Part shown: positions 1-15,392 of the stretch, in pieces | Layout: each line of letters begins with the position of its first letter | Numbering within the stretch: position 1 is the first letter of the stretch | Virus record (IMG/VR): IMGVR_UViG_3300008469_000001 | Location: 1-64,000 of that record | Length of the DNA: 64,000 nucleotides | Reading direction: 5' to 3' (one strand) | Source of the DNA: a virus | The notes under the pieces: generated by a model | Seen by the model: the letters and a program-made list of their open reading frames with translations, nothing else | Databases searched by the model: none | What the model was told of the DNA's origin: nothing | Made by a program: the position numbers and the translations under genes

Positions 1-996
1 AGGACCATCAGGACCATCTTGTGGATCTTGTGGATCTTGTCTTTGTGGATTTCCAGATTCACCACTATCATCAGGCATATCATCTCCCATCTGATCCATT
101 TGGTCTTGCATATTTTGGGCATCTTCATCTTTAAGTTTTTCCATCTCAGATGCAACTAAATCATACATATCTTGATAATTAACAAATTCATCCCAATTGA
201 TTTTATTATTATATAATCCAATTGGTAGTTGTGTATGTCCACTTTTAATCAATGTATGATTAATAATGTAATCCATAACATAGTTAGATAATTTAGGGTC
301 ATTACCATTATTTTTGGATTCTAAAAAATCACCATTAGCATAATGAGATAATTCATGTAACAATACAAATTCACAATATAGGTATTCATCAGGTATATCT
401 CCACCCTGTGATTCATACTTAGCACTATGTGCATTTTTAGGGTCTGCTTTTATACCCTTTATGTGAGCATGTGTTATCAATCCTTGCATAAAATCTTTAT
501 TGAAAACCATTTTTGCACCTGGTGTACAAGCAGCTGTACCAATACCATTGAATTCGGGCATTAATGGATCTGGAATAACCCAAACAGTAGGGTTTATTCT
601 CTTTGGTTGAAAACCATTTGATAATGGGTAAAATTGTGGTGAATCAGATTTTACTTCTTGGAATAAATCTTCAAAAATTCTCGTTTCAAATTTAATTTCT
701 GGTTCGAGTTTTGATGAAATTTCATAAGCAGCTGTTTCATACACATTTTTTAATGCAGTTTCACCTAATATTTTAGATTTACTTAATGTCTCGGTTTGTT
801 GTGCAGCAATATTTTCTATTTGTGCAATAATTTGTTCTCTTGTACCCATTTTTTGTTCAACAGCTTTATCAATAATTGCTTGGACAAAGAAATCATCCAT
901 AGATGATTCCAAATAGTCCACTTTCTTTCTACTGTAATCAAGTCCAGCTTCTGCTAGATATTTTCTTATAACTTTATCTATATCTTTTTCAAACAT
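1..996 (-). CDS. Putative metallopeptidase/VWA-type partner of the MoxR ATPase (3' end cut by window)
   Basis: The reading frame starts at the ATG at 996 and runs 332 codons off the window start, so the C-terminal part is missing. I see a helical N-terminal 100 residues, then a domain with an HExxH zinc-peptidase motif, LLHELSH, with H214, E215 and H218. The visible 3' end encodes a linker rich in Asp, Gln, Pro and Gly. This architecture fits the DUF2201 type (putative metallopeptidase domain followed by a VWA-like domain), which is commonly paired with MoxR-type AAA+ ATPases. The ATPase gene lies 5 nt upstream at 1002-4181, which supports a two-gene functional unit. The VWA-like part would be outside the window, so it is inferred, not seen. 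Confidence 0.65.
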   Translation of the reverse strand, partial: MFEKDIDKVIRKYLAEAGLDYSRKKVDYLESSMDDFFVQAIIDKAVEQKMGTREQIIAQIENIAAQQTETLSKSKILGETALKNVYETAAYEISSKLEPEIKFETRIFEDLFQEVKSDSPQFYPLSNGFQPKRINPTVWVIPDPLMPEFNGIGTAACTPGAKMVFNKDFMQGLITHAHIKGIKADPKNAHSAKYESQGGDIPDEYLYCEFVLLHELSHYANGDFLESKNNGNDPKLSNYVMDYIINHTLIKSGHTQLPIGLYNNKINWDEFVNYQDMYDLVASEMEKLKDEDAQNMQDQMDQMGDDMPDDSGESGNPQRQDPQDPQDGPDGP

Positions 997-1001
997 ATCA
1001 A

Positions 1002-4000
1002 TTACCTTTTTGGTTTAATACCGAATTCTTCTAATAAATCTCTAATCTCTAATGCTAATTTTCTACCTTTATCTAAAGCAGTTTTATCCATAGTTGCTTC
1101 TTTTCTAAAGAAATCCAAAATACCTTGTTTAGTCATGAAATCTCTACCAATTTGTTGTAATGATGTATATAAGTTTCCTAAGTATTGACCAGTTCTTTGA
1201 GCTTCTCTAACTTTACTAGCATGTTCAGCTTTCTTAGTCATTACCATAAGAATAACTTTAACATATTCTAAGTAATTTGTATACAATCCAATCTTTTTAC
1301 CAGCTATTTTAGGTCTACTAACCATACTACCATCTGGTGTAACATACTCTTCTTCACCATTAGGAGTATTTTGTTCTAAATCAACTATTTTATCAGCCAT
1401 AAAGTCTGCAATTTCTTGAGTAAACTTTTGTGGTGCTGTTATATTAGCCGCTAAATAATTATCAAAATGTGTTGAGTTATAAAGTTCACTTGGATTATCA
1501 TAAAAAGCATTAAACATTTCATCAATTGTTTTAACACCTTCAATTTTTAATGATTTAATTGCTTCATATTGATCTCTTACAAGATTATTTTTCATAATAA
1601 AACCAGTTGTAATTGATAAGAAGTTTGCAGGATCAATTTCTTGTTTCTTACATGTAAAACTCATTTTACCAGCCCATGCATCTCTTAATTCATCAATTAT
1701 AGCATCAATAAATATATCAAAATCTTCTTCAGAATATGTATATTTTGGATTGAAAATACCCTTTTCTTTATCAACTTTTTGAGCTGTTGCATTCGAGTCT
1801 TCTGATTGAGCCATCATTGCAGCAATAAAATCATCATCACTCATATCAGTCATCTCATCATTAACAGTTGTATTCAATTTAGATGCTACACCTACTTTAG
1901 TTAATGTTGTTAATATTGCTGCATTTGTTGTTGAAACAATATCTGTAAGCTCTCTTGGTGATACATATATAACATTTCCACCTTCCATAAGATTAAACAT
2001 TCTTTCTTCTTTAACTACTGGATTACCTCTCCAATCTTCATCTCTTGATTGGTATTGTGCTAATACAGCTTTAACTGCACCTACAGTTGCACTATTACAA
2101 TCAAATCCTAATGCATCTTCTAAACCTGTTGGTCTTTCTTGTCCTAATAAGTAACTTTCAGTTTTTGCCCAACTAGCTCTTGCTGGAATAATATCAACAA
2201 CATCTCTTGTGTGTTTAGTTAATTCTCCAACTCCTTCATCTTCTGGATTAAGAGCACCAACAACCATAATCTCAGCTGGTAAATCATATTTTTCATTAAA
2301 TGATTTTTCTAATAATAATTTTCTAATAGAGTTAAATACTTGGGCATCAGCTCTTGTTAATTCATCAAATAATAATAAGAATTTGTATTTACCTTTACCT
2401 TTCTTTCTTTGATCTTCTGGGAAAATTGAATCTTCAGCTATAGCTTCTTCCATTTTCTTTTCAATTAAACCTAATAACTCAGGTTTTGAAAACTCTGTTT
2501 TCATAATTGGATTACCATCTTTATCAACCAAAGCATGTCCATCTTCTACAACTTGTGCAGCTTTTGGAATACCAGTTGTTGATTCTCTAGTTAATGTAGC
2601 AACATCAACATGAATAAAATATAAATCCAAATTATCAGCAACTTGACTCATATGAGCAGTTTTACCAATACCAGGCTCACCAGATACAACAGGTATATAT
2701 TTTCTAGCTTCATCTTCAACAGTTTTAGTATTCGAATCCATTTTGATTTTTGTTGCTAATTGTTGTTCTAAAACATCTTTCCATTCAGTTTGGTTATGTG
2801 TACTACCATCAAAATCTACACCAGATGTTTCTTTAACCAATTCTACAACAGCTTTTTGAATTTTAGGGAATAAATCCGATACTTCTCCTTCAATATAATT
2901 TCTAAAGTTTACTTCAACATTAGACATAAGGATTTTGGCTTCTTTAACATTTGCAACTGGTAAATTAGCATTAATATAAAGTAACAATTGTTCCCATCTT
3001 CTTGGTGAACTTCTTACATCAGCATTCTCATCATCATGAGATAAATCATTTTGATTTAAAATATCATAAAACTTATTATAAACCCTGTGGTCTAATTTAA
3101 TATCTGGATGTTTTTTATCATCATTTTCTTCATATTTTTTAAGTATATAATCAAACCATTGTTCTTTGTCCGGTGCTTTGAATTCCATTTCTTCAAAGTC
3201 ATTATTCATAGGAATATCTTCTAATCCATCATCATCTAAGTTTGATGCGTATACAATAAATGTTCCTTTTGGAATTCTGTCATTACCAATTCTACCATTT
3301 AATATATTTCTAAGAATATTTCTAATTTTCATATTGTCATTTCTGTAATACTCATCTAAGAATAATATACAGTTATATGAATCTCTAACACTATCAATAG
3401 ATCTTTTGAAATTACCAAATATATTTCTTAAATTCTTATCTTTTGCAACAGTAGTCAAATGTTCCATATCTTTCATTTTAAAATTTTTCATTGTTTTCAA
3501 CTTAGTAACTAAGTTTGATTCTGCTTGAACGATTTCAAATGATTCAGCTTCATCTTCTAAAGTATGATTGCCTGCTATTTCCAATGCAGCACTATCTTTT
3601 TTAACTTTATTACCTTTAATAATCATGAAAGGAATATTAATAATGTGTTCTTCTGTAATGTGTGGAGCTTCTACTGTTACTAATGGTAAACCTAATAATT
3701 TAGCAAAACTTCTAATGAATGATGTTTTACCAACACCAGGATCACCAGTAAGCATTAATGAGTTTTTAACACCATTTGCTGCTGCTTGACCTTCCATATT
3801 TGTAAGCATTTTTTGAACTTGTTTTGAAAATAAGTTATTGTTAGTTACTTTTGGTGCTCTAAATTTCCTTGCTTTTTTAGTTAAAGAATTTGAAATTTTA
3901 CCACCAGTAACCAATGTGCCTTTTGAATCCTGTGCATATTTAGTTGCAACAGACCCATCAACATTCAAGAATTTTTGTTTCTTTGCTACTTCAACATATT

Positions 4001-4181
4001 TCTCCAATGATGATTTACTAATACCTAATTCTTTTGAAAAGTTACTAATATTACTATCATCAATCTTTTGATCATCTGAATTAAGAATAGTGTCAATCAA
4101 TCCACTAAATGTTATTTTAGCTCTTGATGTAATTTTATCTGTAATTTTTGCTTCTGTTAATAACGATGTATATATACTCAT
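1002..4181 (-). CDS. Twin-domain MoxR-like AAA+ ATPase
   Basis: This 1,059-residue protein carries two AAA+ modules. Module 1 has Walker A GDPGVGKT at residues 146-153 and Walker B ILFLDE at 272-277. Module 2 has Walker A GEPGIGKT at 501-508 and Walker B LLLFDE at about 602-607, followed by an LTRAD stretch and GALNPEDEG, typical of MoxR/dynein-like AAA proteins. The N-terminal about 110 residues are a small helical region. MoxR proteins usually act as chaperones or metal-insertion machines with a VWA-domain partner, and such a partner gene follows directly on the same strand (1-996). Most MoxR proteins have one AAA module, so the duplication is notable. In this phage it may remodel virion or host complexes; the substrate is unknown. 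Confidence 0.85.
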   Translation of the reverse strand: MSIYTSLLTEAKITDKITSRAKITFSGLIDTILNSDDQKIDDSNISNFSKELGISKSSLEKYVEVAKKQKFLNVDGSVATKYAQDSKGTLVTGGKISNSLTKKARKFRAPKVTNNNLFSKQVQKMLTNMEGQAAANGVKNSLMLTGDPGVGKTSFIRSFAKLLGLPLVTVEAPHITEEHIINIPFMIIKGNKVKKDSAALEIAGNHTLEDEAESFEIVQAESNLVTKLKTMKNFKMKDMEHLTTVAKDKNLRNIFGNFKRSIDSVRDSYNCILFLDEYYRNDNMKIRNILRNILNGRIGNDRIPKGTFIVYASNLDDDGLEDIPMNNDFEEMEFKAPDKEQWFDYILKKYEENDDKKHPDIKLDHRVYNKFYDILNQNDLSHDDENADVRSSPRRWEQLLLYINANLPVANVKEAKILMSNVEVNFRNYIEGEVSDLFPKIQKAVVELVKETSGVDFDGSTHNQTEWKDVLEQQLATKIKMDSNTKTVEDEARKYIPVVSGEPGIGKTAHMSQVADNLDLYFIHVDVATLTRESTTGIPKAAQVVEDGHALVDKDGNPIMKTEFSKPELLGLIEKKMEEAIAEDSIFPEDQRKKGKGKYKFLLLFDELTRADAQVFNSIRKLLLEKSFNEKYDLPAEIMVVGALNPEDEGVGELTKHTRDVVDIIPARASWAKTESYLLGQERPTGLEDALGFDCNSATVGAVKAVLAQYQSRDEDWRGNPVVKEERMFNLMEGGNVIYVSPRELTDIVSTTNAAILTTLTKVGVASKLNTTVNDEMTDMSDDDFIAAMMAQSEDSNATAQKVDKEKGIFNPKYTYSEEDFDIFIDAIIDELRDAWAGKMSFTCKKQEIDPANFLSITTGFIMKNNLVRDQYEAIKSLKIEGVKTIDEMFNAFYDNPSELYNSTHFDNYLAANITAPQKFTQEIADFMADKIVDLEQNTPNGEEEYVTPDGSMVSRPKIAGKKIGLYTNYLEYVKVILMVMTKKAEHASKVREAQRTGQYLGNLYTSLQQIGRDFMTKQGILDFFRKEATMDKTALDKGRKLALEIRDLLEEFGIKPKR

Positions 4182-4184
4182 TTT

Positions 4185-4577
4185 CTACTCCCAATTCATA
4201 ATCTTTTTGAAATCTTCTGGTGTATTAACCAACATCTGCATATGTTTTGAATAAACATAAACATAGTCTTCTGTGGCATAATCCAACCCAGGAATTACAA
4301 ATCTTTTTTGTGTCTGTGGATTTTTAATACCACCATACATACCTATAATTATTGATCTTCTATCTTTTCCATTTGTGTCTATTGAAACAACCGAATCTAA
4401 TACTTCTGAGTATTCCTCATCAGTTAGATCAAATGTTATATCATCATACTCTTTAGTTGATGAATCAATTGGATTATATTCCGGAATTGATGCTATTCTA
4501 TTCTCATGCAAATGTTTAATTTTTGTTTTAGATTGAACTGTTTGCTTCGATTTAAGTAAATCTGTAAGTTTACCCAT
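4185..4577 (-). CDS. Hypothetical protein upstream of the MoxR ATPase gene
   Basis: A 130-residue protein that I do not recognise. It has a basic N-terminus (GKLTDLLKSKQ) that resembles the start of virion-associated phage proteins, then an acidic central part and a C-terminal alpha/beta region. No signal peptide, transmembrane segment or catalytic motif is visible. It is preceded by a GGAG-like ribosome site and by an exact late-type TATAAATA box at 4619-4626, 42 nt upstream. It therefore seems to be the first gene of a late transcript that continues into the ATPase and metallopeptidase genes, with 3-5 nt gaps between the genes. Confidence 0.7.
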   Translation of the reverse strand: MGKLTDLLKSKQTVQSKTKIKHLHENRIASIPEYNPIDSSTKEYDDITFDLTDEEYSEVLDSVVSIDTNGKDRRSIIIGMYGGIKNPQTQKRFVIPGLDYATEDYVYVYSKHMQMLVNTPEDFKKIMNWE

Positions 4578-4618
4578 ATTATGCTCCTATTTTATCAATT
4601 TTAATCTTTAATTTCACT

Positions 4619-4626
4619 TATTTATA
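4619..4626 (-). promoter_or_regulatory. T4-type late promoter box TATAAATA
   Basis: An exact TATAAATA on the minus strand, 42 nt before the ATG of the 130-residue protein. It matches the box used by T4 gp55 sigma, and a gp55-like gene is present at 18974. Confidence 0.6.
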
Positions 4627-4676
4627 CAGAAATTCTTTTATTTTTTGATATTTAAAGTTAATATGGGATTTTTTAA

Positions 4677-5366
4677 TTAATCACCAAATATTGTTTCTTT
4701 AGTGGTTTCTTTAACCTTATCCTTTACAGTATCAGTTGCAAGTTTTTTGATTTTATTAGTTGTTTCATCTATCTTTTCAACAGATATTGTAACCGTATTA
4801 TCAAATCTAGCTTTTAATCCTTTAACAAAACTTTTTTTATTTATTGTGTCTATTTGGTTGTTATAAGTTTCTCTAGCAAATTTATTTCTCTGTAATTCAG
4901 TTACCATTTCATCCAATGTTATCACTACATAAGTTGTATTTGATTCTGGTGTAAAATTGTCTGTAAGTTTCTTTGCTTTTATATTTGGTTTATAAATGAA
5001 TTTAGGACAAATCCTATCTACCAAAATCCTCTTTTTAACTCTTTTAAAATGTGATGTTTCAGGTTCACCTAAAATAACTAATGCTTTATTAGATTCTTTT
5101 ACACCAGAATTGAATGTCTGTCTTGCTAGTTTGTTTCTTTCTAATGATTCTATAAATGAATCTAAGTCAGTAACAACTGATGTTACCGATATATCATAAT
5201 TAGTTGAATATTTTTTTCCATCAATTACTAAATTATGTGTAAATTGAGGACACTCTTTTGGTATATATTCCCTATCAACAACAGTTTCCAATCTTTTAGT
5301 TGTATCAATTCCGGCACAACCCAAAATAAAAAATGGTATTAGAATACTAATTATATAATATTTCAT
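4677..5366 (-). CDS. Lipoprotein with an internal duplication
   Basis: I place the start at 5366 rather than the upstream ATG because MKYYIISILIPFFILGCAG is a clean lipoprotein signal (basic start, hydrophobic core, lipobox ILGC, lipidated Cys17). The mature part contains two similar units. Each has a CPxF motif, then about 50 residues, then an RNKxARxTxN motif (RNKLARQTFN and RNKFARETYN), so it is a tandem duplication. The C-terminus is basic and amphipathic. A membrane-anchored phage lipoprotein could be an outer spanin or a superinfection-exclusion protein. At 229 residues it is longer than typical Rz1-like spanins, so I leave the role open. It follows the 139-residue gene by 4 nt. Confidence 0.7.
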   Translation of the reverse strand: MKYYIISILIPFFILGCAGIDTTKRLETVVDREYIPKECPQFTHNLVIDGKKYSTNYDISVTSVVTDLDSFIESLERNKLARQTFNSGVKESNKALVILGEPETSHFKRVKKRILVDRICPKFIYKPNIKAKKLTDNFTPESNTTYVVITLDEMVTELQRNKFARETYNNQIDTINKKSFVKGLKARFDNTVTISVEKIDETTNKIKKLATDTVKDKVKETTKETIFGD

Positions 5367-5370
5367 AGGA

Positions 5371-5790
5371 TTATCCACCAAAAGAGATTGTTTTACCATC
5401 ATTGAAATCTGTAGATGCAGTAACTTTTTTCTTTACCATAGATTTTCTTTCTTTAAGAGTTTTAGCAGCTTTAATTTCTCTTGCTCTCTTAGTTTGGTCA
5501 TCTTCATCTTCAATTTCATCTAATTCTTCTTTTACTTCATCTTCAGTTAATTCGGCATCTTTTAAATTAGCATCTCTAATTGCTTTAACTTTATCTTTAG
5601 TTTCATTAACTTTATCTTTAGTTTCTGATAGTTTTTCACCAACAACTTTATCTTCTTCAAGAGCATCTGCTCTCTTTTCTTCTTCATATCCTTTTCTTAT
5701 AGTATTTTCAGTATCTTTTTTATCCAAAAATCCCATAACTGATGTAATTGCTCCTAAAGCATTACTAATTAAACTCATTATTGCACCCAT
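5371..5790 (-). CDS. Hypothetical coiled-coil protein with hydrophobic N-terminus
   Basis: A 139-residue protein with a hydrophobic, Ala/Gly-rich N-terminus (residues 1-20). A long, strongly charged region follows, full of Lys and Glu heptad-like repeats such as ETKDKVNETKDKVKAI, then a basic C-terminal stretch. It starts at an ATG with a well-spaced AGGAG site. The gene lies between the giant PKD protein gene and the lipoprotein gene with very short gaps, so the three are probably co-transcribed. An N-terminal anchor followed by a coiled coil next to a lipoprotein gene would fit a spanin-like pair, but no family signature supports that directly. Confidence 0.6.
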   Translation of the reverse strand: MGAIMSLISNALGAITSVMGFLDKKDTENTIRKGYEEEKRADALEEDKVVGEKLSETKDKVNETKDKVKAIRDANLKDAELTEDEVKEELDEIEDEDDQTKRAREIKAAKTLKERKSMVKKKVTASTDFNDGKTISFGG

Positions 5791-5805
5791 AACTTTCTCC
5801 TTGTA

Positions 5806-8800
5806 TTAATTTTTATTCTTTAAATAATCTATCCAATAAGGTATCATAAAGAAATCATCATATTCATCAATAGCTTTTTGTTCCACTACCTGAATATAAT
5901 TACCTAAATTAGATAAATCATCATTTGTTAAACCATTACCAAATAACTCTTTCTGTTCTAATATAACATCTTCAATCATTGGTATATAATTCGCACCCAT
6001 TTCTACTTTTTCACTTTCCCAACCAAACACCATTTCTAGTTTCTTATTAAGCAGATAGAAATCATGATTTTTAGCTTCAAACCATTCACCAGTTGATTCA
6101 TTCATCTTTGGTCTTGTGAAAATTTGACTAAATAATATATGTTTTCCTTCACTAAGAATAGGAAAATCAAGCAATATTTTTATTTTGAAAATAAAGTCTC
6201 TTATTTTTTCAACTAACATCGATAATTTAAATGTATAACTTTTACCTAATGTTTCTAACTCTTGAATGTCTTCAATTGGAAAATATTTTAATTTATGTAA
6301 TTGCATTTTAAAGTGATTGATAGAATCATATTTTTTGAAATTATATGTATCTAACAATATTTTCATTGCTAATAATTGTTCTTCATATAATTCATTAAGA
6401 ACAGTTAAATCTACAATATTTTTAGTGAAATCATAAGCATGAATACCATTCATGTATAACTGAGAACCAATAGTGTTTTGTATTTGTGTTTTAAATTTGT
6501 TGTTTTTAGTTTTTAATGTTTCCAAACAACTTGTATCACTTACATTACATTCTCCCCACAATATTTCTCTATATTCTTTTAACCCAAATATCTTTGCTTC
6601 TAATTTATTATATTCTTCAAATAGATAATATGATGAGTTTTCTTGTTCTAATTGCAATATTTCATTCTTTATAGTTAATTGTTTTTCCATATCATCAGTA
6701 GAATTCAATTCAATATTTAATTCATCTATTCTTTCTAAACTTGCAATTAATCCTGCAAACATTTCTTTAACATCTGATTTAAATACCAATGTAGGAACAT
6801 TCAATGTTGTTTCATTTGGTTTAAATACCATTCTATCATATTTGTTTAATGAAATATTAACATGCACCTTAAATTCTATTTCAAAATAATAAGATTGTTC
6901 TTCTGTATCAGTAATTTCTCTCATATTAACAATTTCAACAACAGCATATCTTGCCATTTTGTTTTTTATAATAAGTATGTCACCTACTAAAACAGGTAGT
7001 ATATTTGATGTTATTGGTTGGAATACACTAGCATCTTCTATCTCATATACAGAATTAATTTTACTTTTTGGAGCTTTTGTAATATAATCAATAAATTTTG
7101 ATTCACTAATGTCAATACTACTTCTACCCATAATCGGATCACTTATTTTAAAATCAAATAAGAATTCTGCTTCTTCAGGCATCTCAAAATCTTCTGTAAA
7201 AATAGTATCATTATTAAATGGTAATCCAGCTATTTCTGTACCTTCATAACCCAATATAACTAAGCCTTGTTTTATAGCTAATAGTTCTGCTTCACTTTCA
7301 CTTACTGGAATAGAACCTTCATCTAAAATATCAGTAATAGTTTTATCTGCAGGTATATCAATGTTAATTGGTATAGTTATTTGTTTTCCTTCTTCACTAT
7401 CATAGTATGTAATTTTAGCAGTACTATCAATCTTAGTAATAGGTGAATACTTAAATGTTTCTGTTTTAACAGATTGACTGTTTGTAGCACCATCAACTTT
7501 AAACTCTAAGAACCTTGTTACAGTTTTACCAGAAGGATATGTCATTGTACACTTAACTTTTTGTAATCCTTCTTCATAAAATGTGTAGAAAGTTTCTTTT
7601 CCAGATTTTAAAATACCATTACCAAAATCCCACTCAAAGGTACATTTCTGCACCGATCCATCAGAGGATATATCAACAGTTTCTTCTTTTGCCTCTAATT
7701 CAACCGAAAATGGTACTGACCCAACAAATGTTTCTTGGTCAGTATATGAAACTTTCTTAGGTTTAGATATTTCATTATTAAATATAAAACCAGACCATTG
7801 GTTTTTATGTGTTGAATACAATACATCAAATTCACTTTTTAACATTTCATACTCTAATAGATTTTCGACCTTTTGAATATTATCAATATATGAATTTATA
7901 TCTAACAATGTCATATTATTATATGATTCAATATTCACAATACTTTCAGACGATACATCAACTATATTGAAATTATTATCAGATGTATATTCTACAATCA
8001 TTTTTGTTATCTCTGATAATACTCTATTCTGATTCAAAATCAATGTTTCTAATCTTTCTTTATAATCAAATTTTTCAATAATATTTTTTAATTCTGGAAA
8101 CCATATATATGATGAAACATCAATCTTTAATTTGTTGTATCTTTCTCTCATACCAATAACATTGTGATACAATCTTATGTAGTTAAGTTTCATAATTTGG
8201 TTATCAAAATAAACTTTCTTTAGGTTTTTTTCATTTATTAAAAATGCTTTTTCATTTGGTCTCTCAACTAAAACAAATTCATAATATATATCTAACTGAC
8301 TAAATAATTCATTTCTAACAACTTTATATGTCTCATCATCAAATAAATCTATAACGAAATTTAATTCAGTTTGATTTTTAAATGATTGTTTTTCACTAAT
8401 TTGTTCATCGATATAAGTATTATTCATTTTCTCAATCTTACTGAAAATACTTTCAGTTGAGATAGATAGTCTTTCTAATGAAAATAACATATTAAAATCA
8501 AATATTGATTCCTTATAAAATGTATCATAATCACTTATAAGTTTGATATACTCTTCTTTATTAAAAGAAACTTTTATATCTTCATAAAATGATTTATATG
8601 GTGTATAAATCGTTTCTTCGATAAAGTTTGTCATATCAATGAAAATATATTTTCTACTTAGATACAATATATGTTCTAATTTATCCATATGTTGTTGAAT
8701 ATCTCTTAATTTTGTTAATGCATTTTCTCTATCAGCATTAGAATTAAGTTTTATAATGTCAATACTATTTTTCTCTCTTTGGTAATTTAAATCAAATTCT

Positions 8801-10254
8801 AATTTATCTAATAAAGTTCTGTAATTATTTTCAATTGCTTCTTCAAATGTTGCCGGTGAAGTTTTTATAGCGGCATCAAAAAAGTTCATAGCTGATATTT
8901 TTAACTTTTTTTGTAATGATTCTAATGTATTCAAATACTTTTGAATTTCAAAATCATTCATAAAATCTCTTTCTTGTGCAATAAATTGGTTATATTTAGA
9001 TAAAGTTGATTTATATATAACTCTATATTCATTTATAGTATCATCACCATACTCATCTATTGTTAATTTTGAATGGGTTGCAAGATTCATTGTCATCAAT
9101 TCATAATAATAAATTTTAATATCTTTTAAAAATTGATTTGTTTGGTAAAATTCATATGTCATAACAGTAGATATACCAGTTTTATGATATTTTTGAGTAT
9201 AGTAAATTTTTCTTTTCTTATCTTTAGATTTAGAAATTAAATTTTCAACCAATGATTTAAAATTTATATCCGTTAATATATAATCTTTGTCTTCATTAAC
9301 TTTTCCATCTTCTAATAAGTACACAAATTCCTGCAATTTATCAAGATCATCAACAAATGATTTATTATCCACATAGGTTACATATAAATCATTATTCACA
9401 TAATCTTCTATTAATTCAGTATATTGAGTTTCATTTGTTTTGAATATTTTAGTTAAGGCATAAAATCTATAAACACCACTTTCGACAATTTCATACAGTT
9501 TATCAGCTAATGGTTTTTTTATTGAATTAACTTTTTCAAAATATTCTTCAGGTGTTGTTCCATATATAGCATGATATTTATTTTTCTGAGCATTTCTTAA
9601 ATCGTCTGCGAAACCATATAATTTTTCACTCAATGTTTGTTCTAATGCATCTAACTGTATTAGTGCATCTTCATTTTCAGACTTGTATAAATTGTATAAC
9701 CCATACATGTAATTATAAACACCATTAATAAATTTATCAGCAGTATCATATTCTAATCTTTGTGGGATGACAATACCTAAATCTTCATCAATATTGAATG
9801 GATTATTTGTGAAAAAGTAATATTTTTCTGTAGCTGCTGCAAATTCTCTAACATAAACCAATATGTCTTGAAGAATCTCAGAATCAATCTTCTTTAAAGG
9901 TTGTTCAACTAACATTCTCTCAAATTTATATATTCTCTCAAAGAAATTATTTTTTTCATCAAAAGATTCTAATTCTTTAATATAACTTTTAACAATAAAT
10001 TCATCTTTGTATTTTTCAAAATTAGCGTCTAATTCGCCAAGTTTTTTTTCTATTTCCTGTAATAAACTAACATTAGTTTGATCAATACTATTCAAAACTA
10101 AAACTAAATTATGTCTAAGTGTATTGTATTCATCAACCACAGTTCTATAGAATTTTACTTGGTCAGCAGTAGTTTCAAAATTAGGAGTTAATTTTCCTTG
10201 TAATATAAAATCTTCAATAGCTACAACTAAAGTGTTAAATTTTTCTTTAAACAT
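5806..10254 (-). CDS. Giant coiled-coil protein with a PKD domain, probable virion component
   Basis: About 1,482 residues. I choose the ATG at 10254 because GGAG lies 7 nt upstream of it (GGAGAAAAAGT-ATG), while the in-frame ATG at 10272 has no site. The first about 800 residues are helical and rich in Glu, Lys, Tyr and Asn. Residues about 830-920 look like a PKD/Ig-like beta sandwich (FEWDFGNG, then YTFYEEGLQKVKCTMTYPSG). A mixed region follows, and the last about 300 residues are helical again. PKD domains in phages occur on exposed virion proteins. The gene overlaps the end of the 10247 gene by 8 nt, so the two giants are translationally coupled. No enzymatic motif is seen. Confidence 0.7.
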   Translation of the reverse strand: MFKEKFNTLVVAIEDFILQGKLTPNFETTADQVKFYRTVVDEYNTLRHNLVLVLNSIDQTNVSLLQEIEKKLGELDANFEKYKDEFIVKSYIKELESFDEKNNFFERIYKFERMLVEQPLKKIDSEILQDILVYVREFAAATEKYYFFTNNPFNIDEDLGIVIPQRLEYDTADKFINGVYNYMYGLYNLYKSENEDALIQLDALEQTLSEKLYGFADDLRNAQKNKYHAIYGTTPEEYFEKVNSIKKPLADKLYEIVESGVYRFYALTKIFKTNETQYTELIEDYVNNDLYVTYVDNKSFVDDLDKLQEFVYLLEDGKVNEDKDYILTDINFKSLVENLISKSKDKKRKIYYTQKYHKTGISTVMTYEFYQTNQFLKDIKIYYYELMTMNLATHSKLTIDEYGDDTINEYRVIYKSTLSKYNQFIAQERDFMNDFEIQKYLNTLESLQKKLKISAMNFFDAAIKTSPATFEEAIENNYRTLLDKLEFDLNYQREKNSIDIIKLNSNADRENALTKLRDIQQHMDKLEHILYLSRKYIFIDMTNFIEETIYTPYKSFYEDIKVSFNKEEYIKLISDYDTFYKESIFDFNMLFSLERLSISTESIFSKIEKMNNTYIDEQISEKQSFKNQTELNFVIDLFDDETYKVVRNELFSQLDIYYEFVLVERPNEKAFLINEKNLKKVYFDNQIMKLNYIRLYHNVIGMRERYNKLKIDVSSYIWFPELKNIIEKFDYKERLETLILNQNRVLSEITKMIVEYTSDNNFNIVDVSSESIVNIESYNNMTLLDINSYIDNIQKVENLLEYEMLKSEFDVLYSTHKNQWSGFIFNNEISKPKKVSYTDQETFVGSVPFSVELEAKEETVDISSDGSVQKCTFEWDFGNGILKSGKETFYTFYEEGLQKVKCTMTYPSGKTVTRFLEFKVDGATNSQSVKTETFKYSPITKIDSTAKITYYDSEEGKQITIPINIDIPADKTITDILDEGSIPVSESEAELLAIKQGLVILGYEGTEIAGLPFNNDTIFTEDFEMPEEAEFLFDFKISDPIMGRSSIDISESKFIDYITKAPKSKINSVYEIEDASVFQPITSNILPVLVGDILIIKNKMARYAVVEIVNMREITDTEEQSYYFEIEFKVHVNISLNKYDRMVFKPNETTLNVPTLVFKSDVKEMFAGLIASLERIDELNIELNSTDDMEKQLTIKNEILQLEQENSSYYLFEEYNKLEAKIFGLKEYREILWGECNVSDTSCLETLKTKNNKFKTQIQNTIGSQLYMNGIHAYDFTKNIVDLTVLNELYEEQLLAMKILLDTYNFKKYDSINHFKMQLHKLKYFPIEDIQELETLGKSYTFKLSMLVEKIRDFIFKIKILLDFPILSEGKHILFSQIFTRPKMNESTGEWFEAKNHDFYLLNKKLEMVFGWESEKVEMGANYIPMIEDVILEQKELFGNGLTNDDLSNLGNYIQVVEQKAIDEYDDFFMIPYWIDYLKNKN

Positions 10255-12427
10255 ACTTTTTCTCCATATCATTCCATATTTTATTTACTTTGTCCATATT
10301 TTCAATTTCAATATCGACCAACCTAAATGATTTATTTTTTTCGAATACATATGATTTTACAACCATTGTAAATTCACTAAATGTAGATATAATATTTTCT
10401 CTAGTTTCAATATTTTCACTTATTCTAAAAATTAAGTTATCAGAATAATCAAAAATATCTGTGTTTATTTCTATATTTTTATTGGCATCAAATGCATAAT
10501 CAACCAATTTAGAAAAGTTTTTGAAAATATTCTCCAATTCTACTGAAACATTTTCATAGAATACTAAATCATAGGTTTTGTCGAGTATAAATTTATGAAT
10601 TTTCACATATAATTCTCTTAATTTGTTATCAATGTAATAGCTATAATATTCCACTTTTTTTATGGACATTATTTCATGATTAAACTCTATTTCCCATTCA
10701 TTCATCATACTCATATTCAATTTATCAAGGATAGTTTCATAATGGGTAAATAATTTATGTTTATTATCGACATTCCACCACAATATATTTGAATTATAGT
10801 TTTTTATAATATCAAATTTTTCATTAAATTCTTTATAAAAATTTCCATCAATTAAATCAGAGATACCATCTTTCTCAGTTATTTCAATATTCTGTGTAAA
10901 AAATGTTATTCTCGAATCAAAATATACTAGGTATTCATTGATTTTATCAGAAATTAATTTTTCAACTTCAAATAATTTCGATTTTAAAAGTGTCAGTTCA
11001 TCATTATTTGCATTTAGTTCTATTTCTATCTTATCTTTTAATACCGTTAGTTCTGAAATTTTTCTTTTAATATCTATTTTTTCTTCTTTATAAAAATCAA
11101 TTTTCTCATTTGTATGTTCATTAGATCCTGACTCTTTTTGAAAATCTCTAGATATAGCTAACACAACTATATCATACTTTCTTCTAATATCTGTTAATAA
11201 TGATTGGTATCTCTCCAAATCATAATAATAATTCCAATAAGTTGATTGAGACATTTTTGTTTTTACAAATTCATAATCCGCTTTAAATGTTAGCATTTTT
11301 GATGTATATGCATCTAATAGATCTTGATCTATAGTGTTATTCAATATATTTTTATATATATGCTCTCTTTTAAGTTGTATTAATTCAATATATTTGTAAT
11401 AATTTTGCTCTTTAGTAAGTGATATAACCGATCTTAATGCAGAGGTTTTATCTTGAACTAAGTTCTCTATTAATGGAATATCAATATTTAATATTTTTTT
11501 TCTTTCTTCTTCTACAGCTCTTGTGAAATCTAATTTATCAAATGTTTCTCTTTCCTGGAGCCAAGCCATAGAATACTCTTTAAGCTGTTTTTCATATTTG
11601 AATTCATATGTCTTAAATAATGTTTGTTTCCATAATGAATAAACATTTTCTATCTCTTTTTTCTTAGCATCAACATGTGTTATTTTTTCACCATATGCTA
11701 AGCTTTGACCGTATGTCCAAGAACTTTCATATTCATCTTTAAAATAAGATGTTAGTGCTTGGTAATACTCTTCTTGTCTATTTTTCCAAGCTTCATAATG
11801 ATTTCTTAATGAAATCTCTTCATACCCACCATATGAAGCAACAGTAGCAAGTTCATTAATATAATTTGATACCTTATTAGATACAGAATCAGCATAATAA
11901 GCTTCATCGGTTGTATTCTGTAAAATTACATCATCAATAATTTGTAATCTTTCGGTTGTTTCATCTATATACCCATCACTATATTCAAAGGTTTCATCAA
12001 TCAATTGACTTTCATAAAATAATATGAGTGCATTGATCTTTTCCAAATCAGAATTCATAACAGCAATATTATTTGAGGAATAATCAAAATCATTCTGAGA
12101 TGTTTCAACTGTTGTCGTATAAATTTCTACTTGCCCTTTAAGGTTTTTATATGATACTTTTAATTTTTCATAATCATCAATAATCAATTGACCTTCATTT
12201 TCAAAACCTTTTATAAATGATGATAGTTTTATAATAAATGTGTGTAAATCTCTATCAAATTTTAGAGTTTGATTTTTGTGATTGTTTATATTGATAGCAT
12301 CTTCATCAGATAGTCCATAGTTACTAATAAATTCATCAGATAATCCTTTGAAATATTCATCAACACTACTATTATAGGGATAACCTGGTACAAATTTGTT
12401 ATTTTGTCTTATTTCAATGCTAACCAC
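10247..12427 (-). CDS. Large helical coiled-coil protein, probable virion component
   Basis: A protein of about 726 residues, almost entirely charged and aromatic-rich helix with heptad-like stretches. No catalytic motif is visible and I do not recognise the family. The frame is open from an ATG at 12439, but that ATG has no ribosome site. A GTG at 12427 is preceded by GGAG at 6 nt (GGAGAAAATT-GTG), so I take the GTG; the difference is four residues. A late-type box AATAAATA lies at 12456-12463. It overlaps the downstream giant gene, and the shared style (long Tyr/Asn/Lys/Glu helices) suggests the two products work together, perhaps in the tail or baseplate. Confidence 0.65.
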   Translation of the reverse strand: MVSIEIRQNNKFVPGYPYNSSVDEYFKGLSDEFISNYGLSDEDAININNHKNQTLKFDRDLHTFIIKLSSFIKGFENEGQLIIDDYEKLKVSYKNLKGQVEIYTTTVETSQNDFDYSSNNIAVMNSDLEKINALILFYESQLIDETFEYSDGYIDETTERLQIIDDVILQNTTDEAYYADSVSNKVSNYINELATVASYGGYEEISLRNHYEAWKNRQEEYYQALTSYFKDEYESSWTYGQSLAYGEKITHVDAKKKEIENVYSLWKQTLFKTYEFKYEKQLKEYSMAWLQERETFDKLDFTRAVEEERKKILNIDIPLIENLVQDKTSALRSVISLTKEQNYYKYIELIQLKREHIYKNILNNTIDQDLLDAYTSKMLTFKADYEFVKTKMSQSTYWNYYYDLERYQSLLTDIRRKYDIVVLAISRDFQKESGSNEHTNEKIDFYKEEKIDIKRKISELTVLKDKIEIELNANNDELTLLKSKLFEVEKLISDKINEYLVYFDSRITFFTQNIEITEKDGISDLIDGNFYKEFNEKFDIIKNYNSNILWWNVDNKHKLFTHYETILDKLNMSMMNEWEIEFNHEIMSIKKVEYYSYYIDNKLRELYVKIHKFILDKTYDLVFYENVSVELENIFKNFSKLVDYAFDANKNIEINTDIFDYSDNLIFRISENIETRENIISTFSEFTMVVKSYVFEKNKSFRLVDIEIENMDKVNKIWNDMEKKYV

Positions 12428-13493: not shown

Positions 13494-15392
13494 TTAATCA
13501 GAAATCTCAGCATCAATAATATCTTCATCAACAACATCATTTGTGTTTGCTTTTGCAGTTTCAGGTTGTGCTTTAGTTTGTTGATTTTCATATATTTTAG
13601 TACCAACTTCTTGATACTTAGTCATCAGAGTATCTTTAGTAGTTTCTAACTCAGATTTTGTATGATTTTCATTAGCAAGAATTTCTTTAGTTTTTTCTAA
13701 TGCTGTTTGTAACTCAGAAGTATCTACAGATTCATTCTCTTTAATAAATTTTTCAACTTGTGAAACGGTTGCATCAACTTCATTTCTAACTTTTATAGTT
13801 TCCACTTTATCTTTATTTTTTTCATTATCAGCTTCTGCATCAGCTACCATTTTAGCAATTTCTTCATCTGATAATCCAGATGATCCCGAAATAGTAATTG
13901 AGTTTTCTTTACCAGTTGCTTCATCTTTAGCAGAAACATTAAGAACACCATTAGCATCAATATCAAGAACAATTTTTATCTTTGGAATCCCTCTTGGGGC
14001 GGGAGCAATACCACCTAATTCAAAATTACCTAATAATTTATTAGATTCAAATAATTCAGCTTCACCTTGTGCTATTCTAACAGACACAGCTGGTTGGTTA
14101 TCTGCAGCAGTTGAAAATGTTTCTGATTTCTGTACAGGTATTGTTGTACCTTTTTCAATAAGTTTAGTCATAACTCCACCCATTGTTTCAATACCAATTG
14201 ATAATGGTGTAACATCAAGCAACAATACATCTTTAACATCACCTCTTAAAACACCACCTTGGATAGCGGCACCAGCAGCAACAACCTCATCAGGGTTTAC
14301 AGATTTATTTAATTGTTTACCATTAAAATATGATGTAACTTTCTCTTGAACTAATGGGATTCTTGTTGAACCACCAACCATTACAATTTCTTCAATATCA
14401 GTTGTTTTCATTCCTGCATCTTTTAAAGATGTTTTAACATGTTCAATTGTTTCATCTACAATGTTTTCAATCATAGATTCAAATTTTGCTCTAGTCAATT
14501 TTGTTACCAAATGTTTAGGTCCACTTGCATCAGCAGTGATAAATGGTAAGTTAATATCAGTTTCATTTGTTGCAGATAATTCTTTTTTAGCTTTTTCCGC
14601 TTCATCCATCAATCTTTGCATAGCCATATTGTCATTTCTAATGTCAATACCATTTTCTTTTTTGAATTCATCAGCCATATAATCTACGATTAATTTATCT
14701 GCGTCTTTTCCACCAAGAAAAGCATTACCATCTGTTGAAAGAACCTCAAATGTACCATCACCAGCTTCAATAACTGAAACATCAAATGTACCACCACCAA
14801 AATCGTAAACTAACAATGTTTCTTCTTCTTTTTTATCAATTCCATAGGCTAATGAAGCTGCTGTAGGCTCATTGATAATTCTAAGTACATTTAATCCTGC
14901 AATTGTACCGGCTTCTTGAGTAGCTTTTCTTTGTGCATCATTGAAGTATGCTGGAACTGTGATAACTGCATCAGTTACCTTTTGTCCTAAGTAAGACTCT
15001 GCATCTTCTTTAAGTTTTGAAAGAATTTTTGCAGAAATTTCTTGAGGTGTATAAATTTTATCCCCTACTTCAACTGCACATGCACCATTTTTATTAATTA
15101 TATTGTATTGTGTTTTCTCATCTGCTTCTTTTGCTTTTGGTTCAGCAAACATCATACCCATAATTCTTTTAATAGAATCAATTGTTTTCAATGGATTTGT
15201 TACAGCTTGTCTCTTTGCAGATTCACCAACTAAAACTTCACCCTTATCTGTGAAAGCTACAATTGATGGTGTTGTATTTTTACCTTCTTTATTAGGAATG
15301 ATTTTATATGTACCTTGTTCATACACAGATACTGCCGAATTTGTGGTTCCTAAATCCACACCAATGCATACACTATTAATTTTGTTACTCAT
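13494..15392 (-). CDS. dnaK: Chaperone DnaK (Hsp70), full length
   Basis: 632 residues, the usual bacterial DnaK length. The nucleotide-binding domain is intact: GVDLGTTNS near residue 10, [38 protein letters not shown] and [10 protein letters not shown]. The linker [11 protein letters not shown] and the substrate-binding domain ([15 protein letters not shown]) are present, and the C-terminus ends in an acidic tail with [11 protein letters not shown]. Stretches such as [18 protein letters not shown] and [16 protein letters not shown] resemble campylobacterotal DnaK as I recall it, suggesting acquisition from such a host. It sits in a block with hsp20. T4-type phages normally recruit host DnaK, so a phage copy is unusual. 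A TATAAT box lies at 15425-15430 and AAGGAG precedes the ATG. Confidence 0.97.

Follow-up and report, generated by a model that had tools for sequence, protein, structure and literature searches.

A MoxR-type ATPase with two fused AAA domains and its HExxH partner in a large T4-like phage

Pairs consisting of a MoxR-type ATPase and a partner protein with a VWA domain have been described in viruses. Iyer et al. (2021; PMC7824862) reported one from jumbo phages of group 2.2, in which the vWA protein begins with a metallopeptidase domain, and proposed, by analogy with the tail of the Acidianus two-tailed virus, that this single-AAA pair acts in virion assembly and processing; their example, ASV44729.1/ASV44728.2, is the pair of phage Atu_ph07. 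The MoxR protein of the Acidianus two-tailed virus and its partner (p618/p892) have been tied to tail development, according to citing papers, and this pair is without a peptidase domain (PMC7824862). In phage N4, the core genes include gp24, which carries the label 'unknown', and gp25, labelled 'vWFA domain' (PMC4193335), and the NorQ-NorD pair has been proposed to act through force on the NorD linker (PMC13036017). Here we describe an operon at the start of an 87,921-bp viral fragment (IMG/VR record IMGVR_UViG_3300008469_000001), the first 64,000 bases of which were analysed and are termed the window. The operon encodes a MoxR-type ATPase with two AAA domains in one chain, termed the twin, and an HExxH-domain protein, termed the partner.

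The twin ATPase and its partner

The operon comprises three genes packed tightly on the minus strand from position 4577 to position 1, with intergenic gaps of 3 and 5 bp in the open reading frame (ORF) list. Pfam AAA matched the twin over two stretches (E 1.4e-13), AAA_5 was also matched, and the PHROG ATPase family phrog_1297 was again detected over two stretches (E 9e-35). In the partner, the PF13203 domain (DUF2201_N, 'putative metallopeptidase') was detected above the gathering score (E 6e-7), and the HExxH motif reads HELSH. A preliminary description of this DNA had proposed a MoxR-type twin AAA+ protein adjoining an HExxH protein, and this was borne out by the domain matches, the motif and the 5-bp gap between the two genes.

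Relatives were sought by scanning short pieces of both window proteins against IMG/VR, and the twins obtained were then aligned, the alignment in turn yielding further relatives. Whole-protein pattern scans of IMG/VR gave no relatives, which were obtained with the shorter pieces. A tblastn search of 50,697 phage records with both proteins gave no match at E 1e-5 and, with E up to 10, weak matches only, the best among those listed having E values of 1e-3 and 4e-3. Twins were present on 16 contigs (the window, L014, L015, L016, L018, L019, L026, L027, L028, L029, L033, L035, L036, L037, L038 and L039), of which L039 is from a genome bin titled Omnitrophota. The partner was found on 14 of these contigs, adjoining the twin in 12 and one gene apart in L035 and L037. 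Alignment A6 leaves out the near-copies L018 (3 residues off the L019 twin) and L038 (identical to the L028 twin) as well as the split L014 twin, and identities to the window protein ranged from 29 to 63%. The Walker A lysine, the Walker B Asp-Glu and the sensor-1 asparagine were invariant in both domains of all 13 aligned twins. Because these key residues were kept down to ~30% identity, both AAA domains were concluded to be under selection.

Hidden Markov models (HMMs) of domain 1, of domain 2 and of the single-AAA gp24 recognised one another, and this cross-recognition suggested a duplication or fusion inside a gp24-type family as the most likely origin of the twin. An AlphaFold model of the twin (mean predicted local distance difference test score, pLDDT, of 63.7) matched RavA (3nbx; Z 11.3, 238 residues aligned, 3.8 Å), NorQ (9qh8; Z 11.2, 236 residues aligned, 5.3 Å) and CbbQ2 (6l1q; Z 10.7). 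The Pfam bpMoxR model scored 18.4 bits on the twin, against a cut-off of 27. At the arginine-finger site of domain 1, D, Q or E was found in all 13 twins where gp24 has Arg (alignment A2). In the corresponding region of domain 2, an Arg lies nearby in 10 of the 13, with Lys, Ser or Gln in the rest, and is displaced by two residues when the profiles are aligned. These residues are too uncertain a basis for calling either site dead.

The ORF of the window partner is cut by the start of the record itself, not just by that of the window, and no exact repeat joining the two ends of the record was found. The HExxH motif was kept in all 12 aligned twin-linked partners, including that of the window, and an Asp at +9 from the first His of the motif was likewise invariant. 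In every aligned partner that reaches the VWA domain (L015, L019, L026, L028, L033, L035 and L037), DxSGS and the Thr and Asp of the metal ion-dependent adhesion site (MIDAS) were present. The preliminary description had placed the partner in a VWA-bearing family and had named absence of this domain as evidence to the contrary; all seven aligned twin-linked partners that extend far enough have one, with the MIDAS, and the missing part of the window partner very probably carries a VWA domain also. For the partner of L015, an AlphaFold model with a mean pLDDT of 67.2 has a VWA fold at residues 557-729, and its C terminus matched the VWA domain 1t6b_Y (Z 13.1, 149 residues aligned, 2.7 Å). The Pfam DUF2201 VWA model gave no match at E 0.01 for the partners of L015, L019, L035 and L037.

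At least four contigs (the window, L014, L016 and L036) break off within the linker between the HExxH and VWA parts. The L015 linker contains a perfect 15-bp tandem repeat, and since the linker is thus repetitive, a break in assembly is the best explanation of where the contigs stop. The VWA half was sought elsewhere in the 306-kb L014 record and no match was obtained. L049, another contig of the L014 sample, begins in a VWA half with DTSGS and may or may not be from the same genome. In L039 (10508-11850), the partner ORF stops at 377 amino acids and the linker opens a new ORF; in this contig the two parts of the partner may thus be encoded by different genes.

A shared late promoter for the two genes had also been proposed. 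The single operon stood, and a T4-late-promoter-like box, TATAAATA, was located 42 bp upstream of its first gene. Sense copies of the box in intergenic stretches up to 120 bp upstream of genes numbered 8 in the window against 1.66 expected, a count reached in 0 of 500 shuffles, and antisense copies in those stretches numbered 3. Over the window as a whole there was no excess of the box (15 seen against 20 expected). One late promoter for the operon is accordingly a prediction from the box, and this part of the proposal was upheld to that extent.

A two-piece relative of the twin

In L014 (IMGVR_UViG_3300035665_000001), the twin gene is broken into two genes by an interruption at 7100-8010 that falls within the second P-loop. 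The first half-gene encodes GEPGIGK and then a 29-residue tail beginning with Cys; the second encodes a 139-residue stretch ending in HHN before Thr, followed by the rest of domain 2. Between the halves lie a stop codon, a terminator-like hairpin, a copy of TATAAATA and a new start. One such hairpin with a T run was found between the halves and none in shuffles. The copy of the box lies 41 bp ahead of the start of the second half-gene, and another precedes the gene for the 130-residue protein in this phage.

The C-part of the interruption matched the TerL intein of Serratia phage Kevin at 28% over 78 residues up to HN (pairwise E 1e-7), and both are inserted at the same point of the P-loop, between GK and T. 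In a search of the phage collection, the E value for the Kevin intein was 0.03; the intein matches in this collection numbered 11, of which two were examined. Against an intein, the 29-residue N-part had no significant match in the Kevin terminase (E 2.0), and the intein models of Pfam and NCBIfam gave no match. A split intein in the second P-loop, with trans-splicing predicted, is nonetheless the probable cause of the two-piece gene, a reading drawn from the pairwise test, from the exactness of the boundaries and from relatives in which the gene is uninterrupted. Short N-inteins exist, for example in AceL-TerL. Split inteins have already been published for jumbo phages (MIJ3; PMC6892783).

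Genomic context and proposed function

Structural genes were searched for at 15 loci, using 13 structural and two other proteins as queries. A recognised structural or packaging gene was present in 7 of the 15: genes for a tail sheath stabiliser and a tail tube protein at L019, L028, L038 and L033, a prohead protease gene at L029 and L035, and a terminase gene at L037. Five of them received PHROG names. Head-closure and virion genes precede the pair in RaK2 and PHA46. As tail, prohead-protease or terminase genes lie near the pair in some relatives, a role in late virion assembly or processing was favoured. We propose that the pair forms a late-expressed virion-assembly machine, consisting of a MoxR AAA+ motor, with two AAA domains fused per chain, and a VWA adaptor-protease, and consider the probability of this to be about 50%. 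In such a machine, the AAA chains would form a ring gripping the VWA domain, and ATP-driven motion would pull or twist the linker, after the model for NorQ-NorD (PMC13036017). The linker, lying between the protease-like and VWA domains, would be a natural element to pull. A client would then be presented to the zincin-like domain, or remodelled, and would most likely be a head or tail protein needing folding, assembly or clipping. Virion remodelling had been one of three roles suggested in the preliminary description; the neighbouring genes favour it, and it had previously been published as a proposal for the pair with a single ATPase domain (PMC7824862). The second, opening of the cell, found no support, the nameable neighbours including tail, head-protease, terminase and Clp genes.

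Several observations weigh against a virion-assembly machine. None of the structural genes searched for was present in the first 16 kb of the window or at 7 other loci, and in N4 and PG11 the pair is near RNA polymerase, DNA polymerase or dCTP deaminase genes, not virion genes. The twin occurs without a partner on the contig fragments L027 and L029. Exact TATAAATA was absent within 150 bp of the operon in L015 and L016. In comparisons with the twin model, ClpA, NSF and dynein equalled the MoxR chains in Z, and the confidence of both models is modest (pLDDT of 63.7 for the twin and 67.2 for the L015 partner). The HExxH domain was without a structural match among the fold-library matches listed, a result that does not in itself make the fold a new one, and its catalytic activity is a prediction. 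Loss of HExxH in relatives had been named beforehand as contrary evidence; this was seen in none of the 12 twin-linked partners and in one of seven single-AAA partners, that of Atu_ph07 (ASV44728.2; L010, 5923-7212), in which HQILH replaces HExxH with loss of the Glu, and which may therefore be catalytically dead. Finally, no experiment on any member of the pair was found in the literature searched, which consisted mostly of titles and abstract openings, with subscription journals thinly covered.

Clp genes beside the pair raised the possibility of a proteolytic role, in which the pair would unfold and clip proteins and the phage ClpS and ClpA would pass the new N termini to host ClpP as a viral N-degron pathway, which may be directed at proteins of the host or at virion proteins that were misassembled. 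In L015 (9718-12344), genes for ClpS (PF02617, E 6e-27) and then for a ClpA-like protein (TIGR02639, 844 bits, below the cut-off of 993) are directly downstream of the partner. A like order was found in L049 (1075-3917), where the VWA half is followed by ClpS-like and ClpA-like proteins, named by eye and by a match to the ClpS of L015. The window phage, moreover, encodes a full Hsp70. However, the linkage to Clp genes was detected in just two phages, for one of them via two contigs of one sample. With 4.9 to 6.7 kb readable past the partner, phmmer detected neither ClpS nor ClpA in six loci (L019, L026, L028, L033, L037 and L038), and a ClpA query had no match in the records of the window (88 kb), L014 (306 kb) and L016 (172 kb), all of them fragments. 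In addition, ClpS and ClpA have each been reported, separately, in jumbo phages (PMC7824862), and a viral ClpS with 43% identity to that of L015 was found in L050 (IMGVR_UViG_3300021083_000174, 3825-6312) with no twin seen in the 12-kb locus. Proteolysis of this kind is a possible but rather unlikely function of the pair. By reading alone, the L050 ClpS gene adjoins genes resembling ClpX and Hsp20. A more elaborate scheme, in which one operon provides the whole viral N-degron pathway, with a two-engine MoxR ring driving a VWA-tethered zincin, ClpS and ClpA feeding ClpP, and the L014 motor gated by trans-splicing, is doubtful.

It is similarly doubtful that the locus is an ordinary gp24/gp25-type pair whose doubled AAA domain represents a neutral duplication: the pair is widespread and domains 1 and 2 are homologous, but the Walker and sensor-1 residues were kept in both domains of all 13 twins. 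A counter-defence or host-takeover device, the third role suggested in the preliminary description, would be in keeping with the MoxR-VWA modules found in bacterial conflict systems (PMC7159879) and with the match of IetA-type defence ATPases to domain 1 around the P-loop. These matches, however, span ~30 to 60 residues, and the NCBIfam one, for which the cut-off is 510, scored 39.7 bits. In PADLOC, the twin had P-loop-region or weak matches, the window partner had a 19-bit capH match and two complete partners had none; the matches were judged to be P-loop noise or too weak. No defence or anti-defence neighbour was recognised, PADLOC being the one search aimed at such genes. The suggestion thus found no support, and a device of this type is very unlikely. 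Least likely of all is a cofactor-insertion chaperone akin to NorQ-NorD, CbbQ-CbbO or CobS-CobT, with a metalloenzyme of the phage or the host as the protein activated, since, despite the fold matches of the twin model to NorQ and CbbQ2 and a weak CobS-like match of domain 2 (14.8 bits to TIGR01650, whose cut-off is 558), MoxR folds are common to chaperones with unlike clients, no metalloenzyme gene was noticed beside twin pairs among neighbours annotated in part, and to our knowledge the NorQ-, CbbQ- and CobS-type partners lack an HExxH domain.

The features of the window are collected in Table 1. T4-type matches were obtained for the portal, head protease, major head protein, tail sheath, SbcC/D-like and DNA-end-protector proteins, the major head protein having 33.7% identity to its known-phage homologue, the best among the matches listed. 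The window phage is a large T4-like virus of bacteria. Its Hsp70 has 50 to 56% identity to Hsp70s of uncultured huge phages among the matches listed. The gene for the 1,488-residue protein is a conserved context of the operon.

Table 1. Features of the operon and its surroundings in the window
Feature	Position	Strand	Remarks
Partner, N-terminal part only, 332 aa	1..996	-	cut by the record's end; N-terminal region, DUF2201_N HExxH domain and linker start
Gly/Asp/Pro/Gln-rich low-complexity linker, start only	1..84	-	
HExxH motif HELSH, residues 214-218	343..357	-	
Twin MoxR-type AAA+ ATPase, 1,059 aa	1002..4181	-	
Walker B, AAA domain 2 (FLLLFDE)	2361..2381	-	
Walker A, AAA domain 2 (GEPGIGKT)	2658..2681	-	site of the probable split intein in L014
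Walker B, AAA domain 1 (CILFLDE)	3351..3371	-	
Walker A, AAA domain 1 (GDPGVGKT)	3723..3746	-	
130-aa protein, first gene of the operon	4185..4577	-	homologue at the equivalent place in L014, L015 and L016
TATAAATA, T4-late-promoter-like box	4619..4626	-	42 bp upstream of the operon's first gene
1,488-aa protein	5806..10272	-	weak PKD-like stretch below the Pfam cut-off; L014, L015 and L016 each have a homologue upstream of the operon
Hsp70/DnaK, complete	13494..15392	-	PF00012, E 4e-230

Some further observations were made at the related loci. A second small HExxH protein, with HELTH in all three cases, is encoded shortly upstream of the twin in L019 (3474-4289), L028 (6531-7346) and L033 (1825-2649); that of L019 had no Pfam match and is encoded directly after a virion-protein gene. 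Proteins with repeated K/LERYGV-type units are scattered in the tail block of L019 (1-1490, 9802-11358 and 13019-15151) and, by reading alone, look like homing endonucleases. In L003 (1-6558; ~76.0-84.6 kb of the record), a protein of more than 2,100 residues with recurring His/Asp/Glu-rich motifs, such as GHDEFxxDExYH, follows a baseplate-wedge-like gene.

Comparison with known systems

Seven single-AAA phage loci, chosen from the weak-match lists, were used for comparison; two unannotated faecal phage contigs (L012 and L013) and a 24% match (L047) lie outside the set of loci analysed. Gene order and partner architecture matched those of the twin loci in all seven, and each of the seven partners carries DUF2201_N and DUF2201 VWA-like domains. 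The ATPases have one P-loop each, with a second, loose pattern match in that of S-TIM54. PHROG 1314, which matches the window partner, is labelled 'HNH endonuclease', and this label is also found on the N4 gp25, RaK2, Atu_ph07 and PHA46 records. Above cut-off, Pfam detected DUF2201_N and DUF2201 only in the 7 partners scanned, and the label looks wrong for partners of this type; relabelling them would make the family visible. The pair matters beyond the window, as the gp24/gp25-type pair is core to N4-like phages (PMC4193335) and turns up again in large phages that are unrelated, and no tested function for it was found in the literature searched. In the fused chain each P-loop can be mutated separately, so that the role of each AAA domain is testable, and, in some relatives, linkage to genes for tail proteins, a prohead protease and Clp proteins narrows the choice of client.

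Among more distant systems, RavA-ViaA and NorQ-NorD resemble the twin pair in having a VWA-domain partner, and the MoxR fold of RavA and NorQ may also be that of the twin. RavA and NorQ have one AAA domain per chain, with which the chain lengths of the matched structures agree, and we know of no HExxH domain in the partners of RavA or of the NorQ, CbbQ and CobS type. The MoxR protein of the Acidianus two-tailed virus is also a single-AAA protein. Dynein and midasin-type chains share with the twin the fusion of more than one AAA domain per chain. These have six AAA domains in one ring, and the midasin chain has a MIDAS-bearing VWA domain at its end, whereas the window form has two AAA domains and its VWA domain is on a separate chain. 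A MoxR gene of cyanophage S-CREM1 was assigned to the CGN subfamily by its authors (PMC9964418).

The closest system is the pair of Iyer et al., which is like that of the window in gene order, in DUF2201_N and linker, and in a VWA domain with DxSGS, seen on the window side in relatives. It differs in having one AAA domain, in a protein of 417 amino acids in Atu_ph07, where the window has two fused in 1,059 amino acids, and its example partner has HQILH where twin-linked partners have HExxH. In Escherichia phage N4 (Schitoviridae), gp24/gp25 is likewise an ATPase adjoining a DUF2201_N/DUF2201 partner, but gp24 is a single-AAA protein of 352 amino acids, gp25 has 380 amino acids without a long linker, and the genes are outside the structural gene block. 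No description of a twin MoxR protein in phages, of its split form or of a ClpS-ClpA linkage was found in the literature searched, within the limits given above. The pair itself was therefore already known, and it is the fused double ATPase, its two-piece relative and the ClpS-ClpA linkage that look new.

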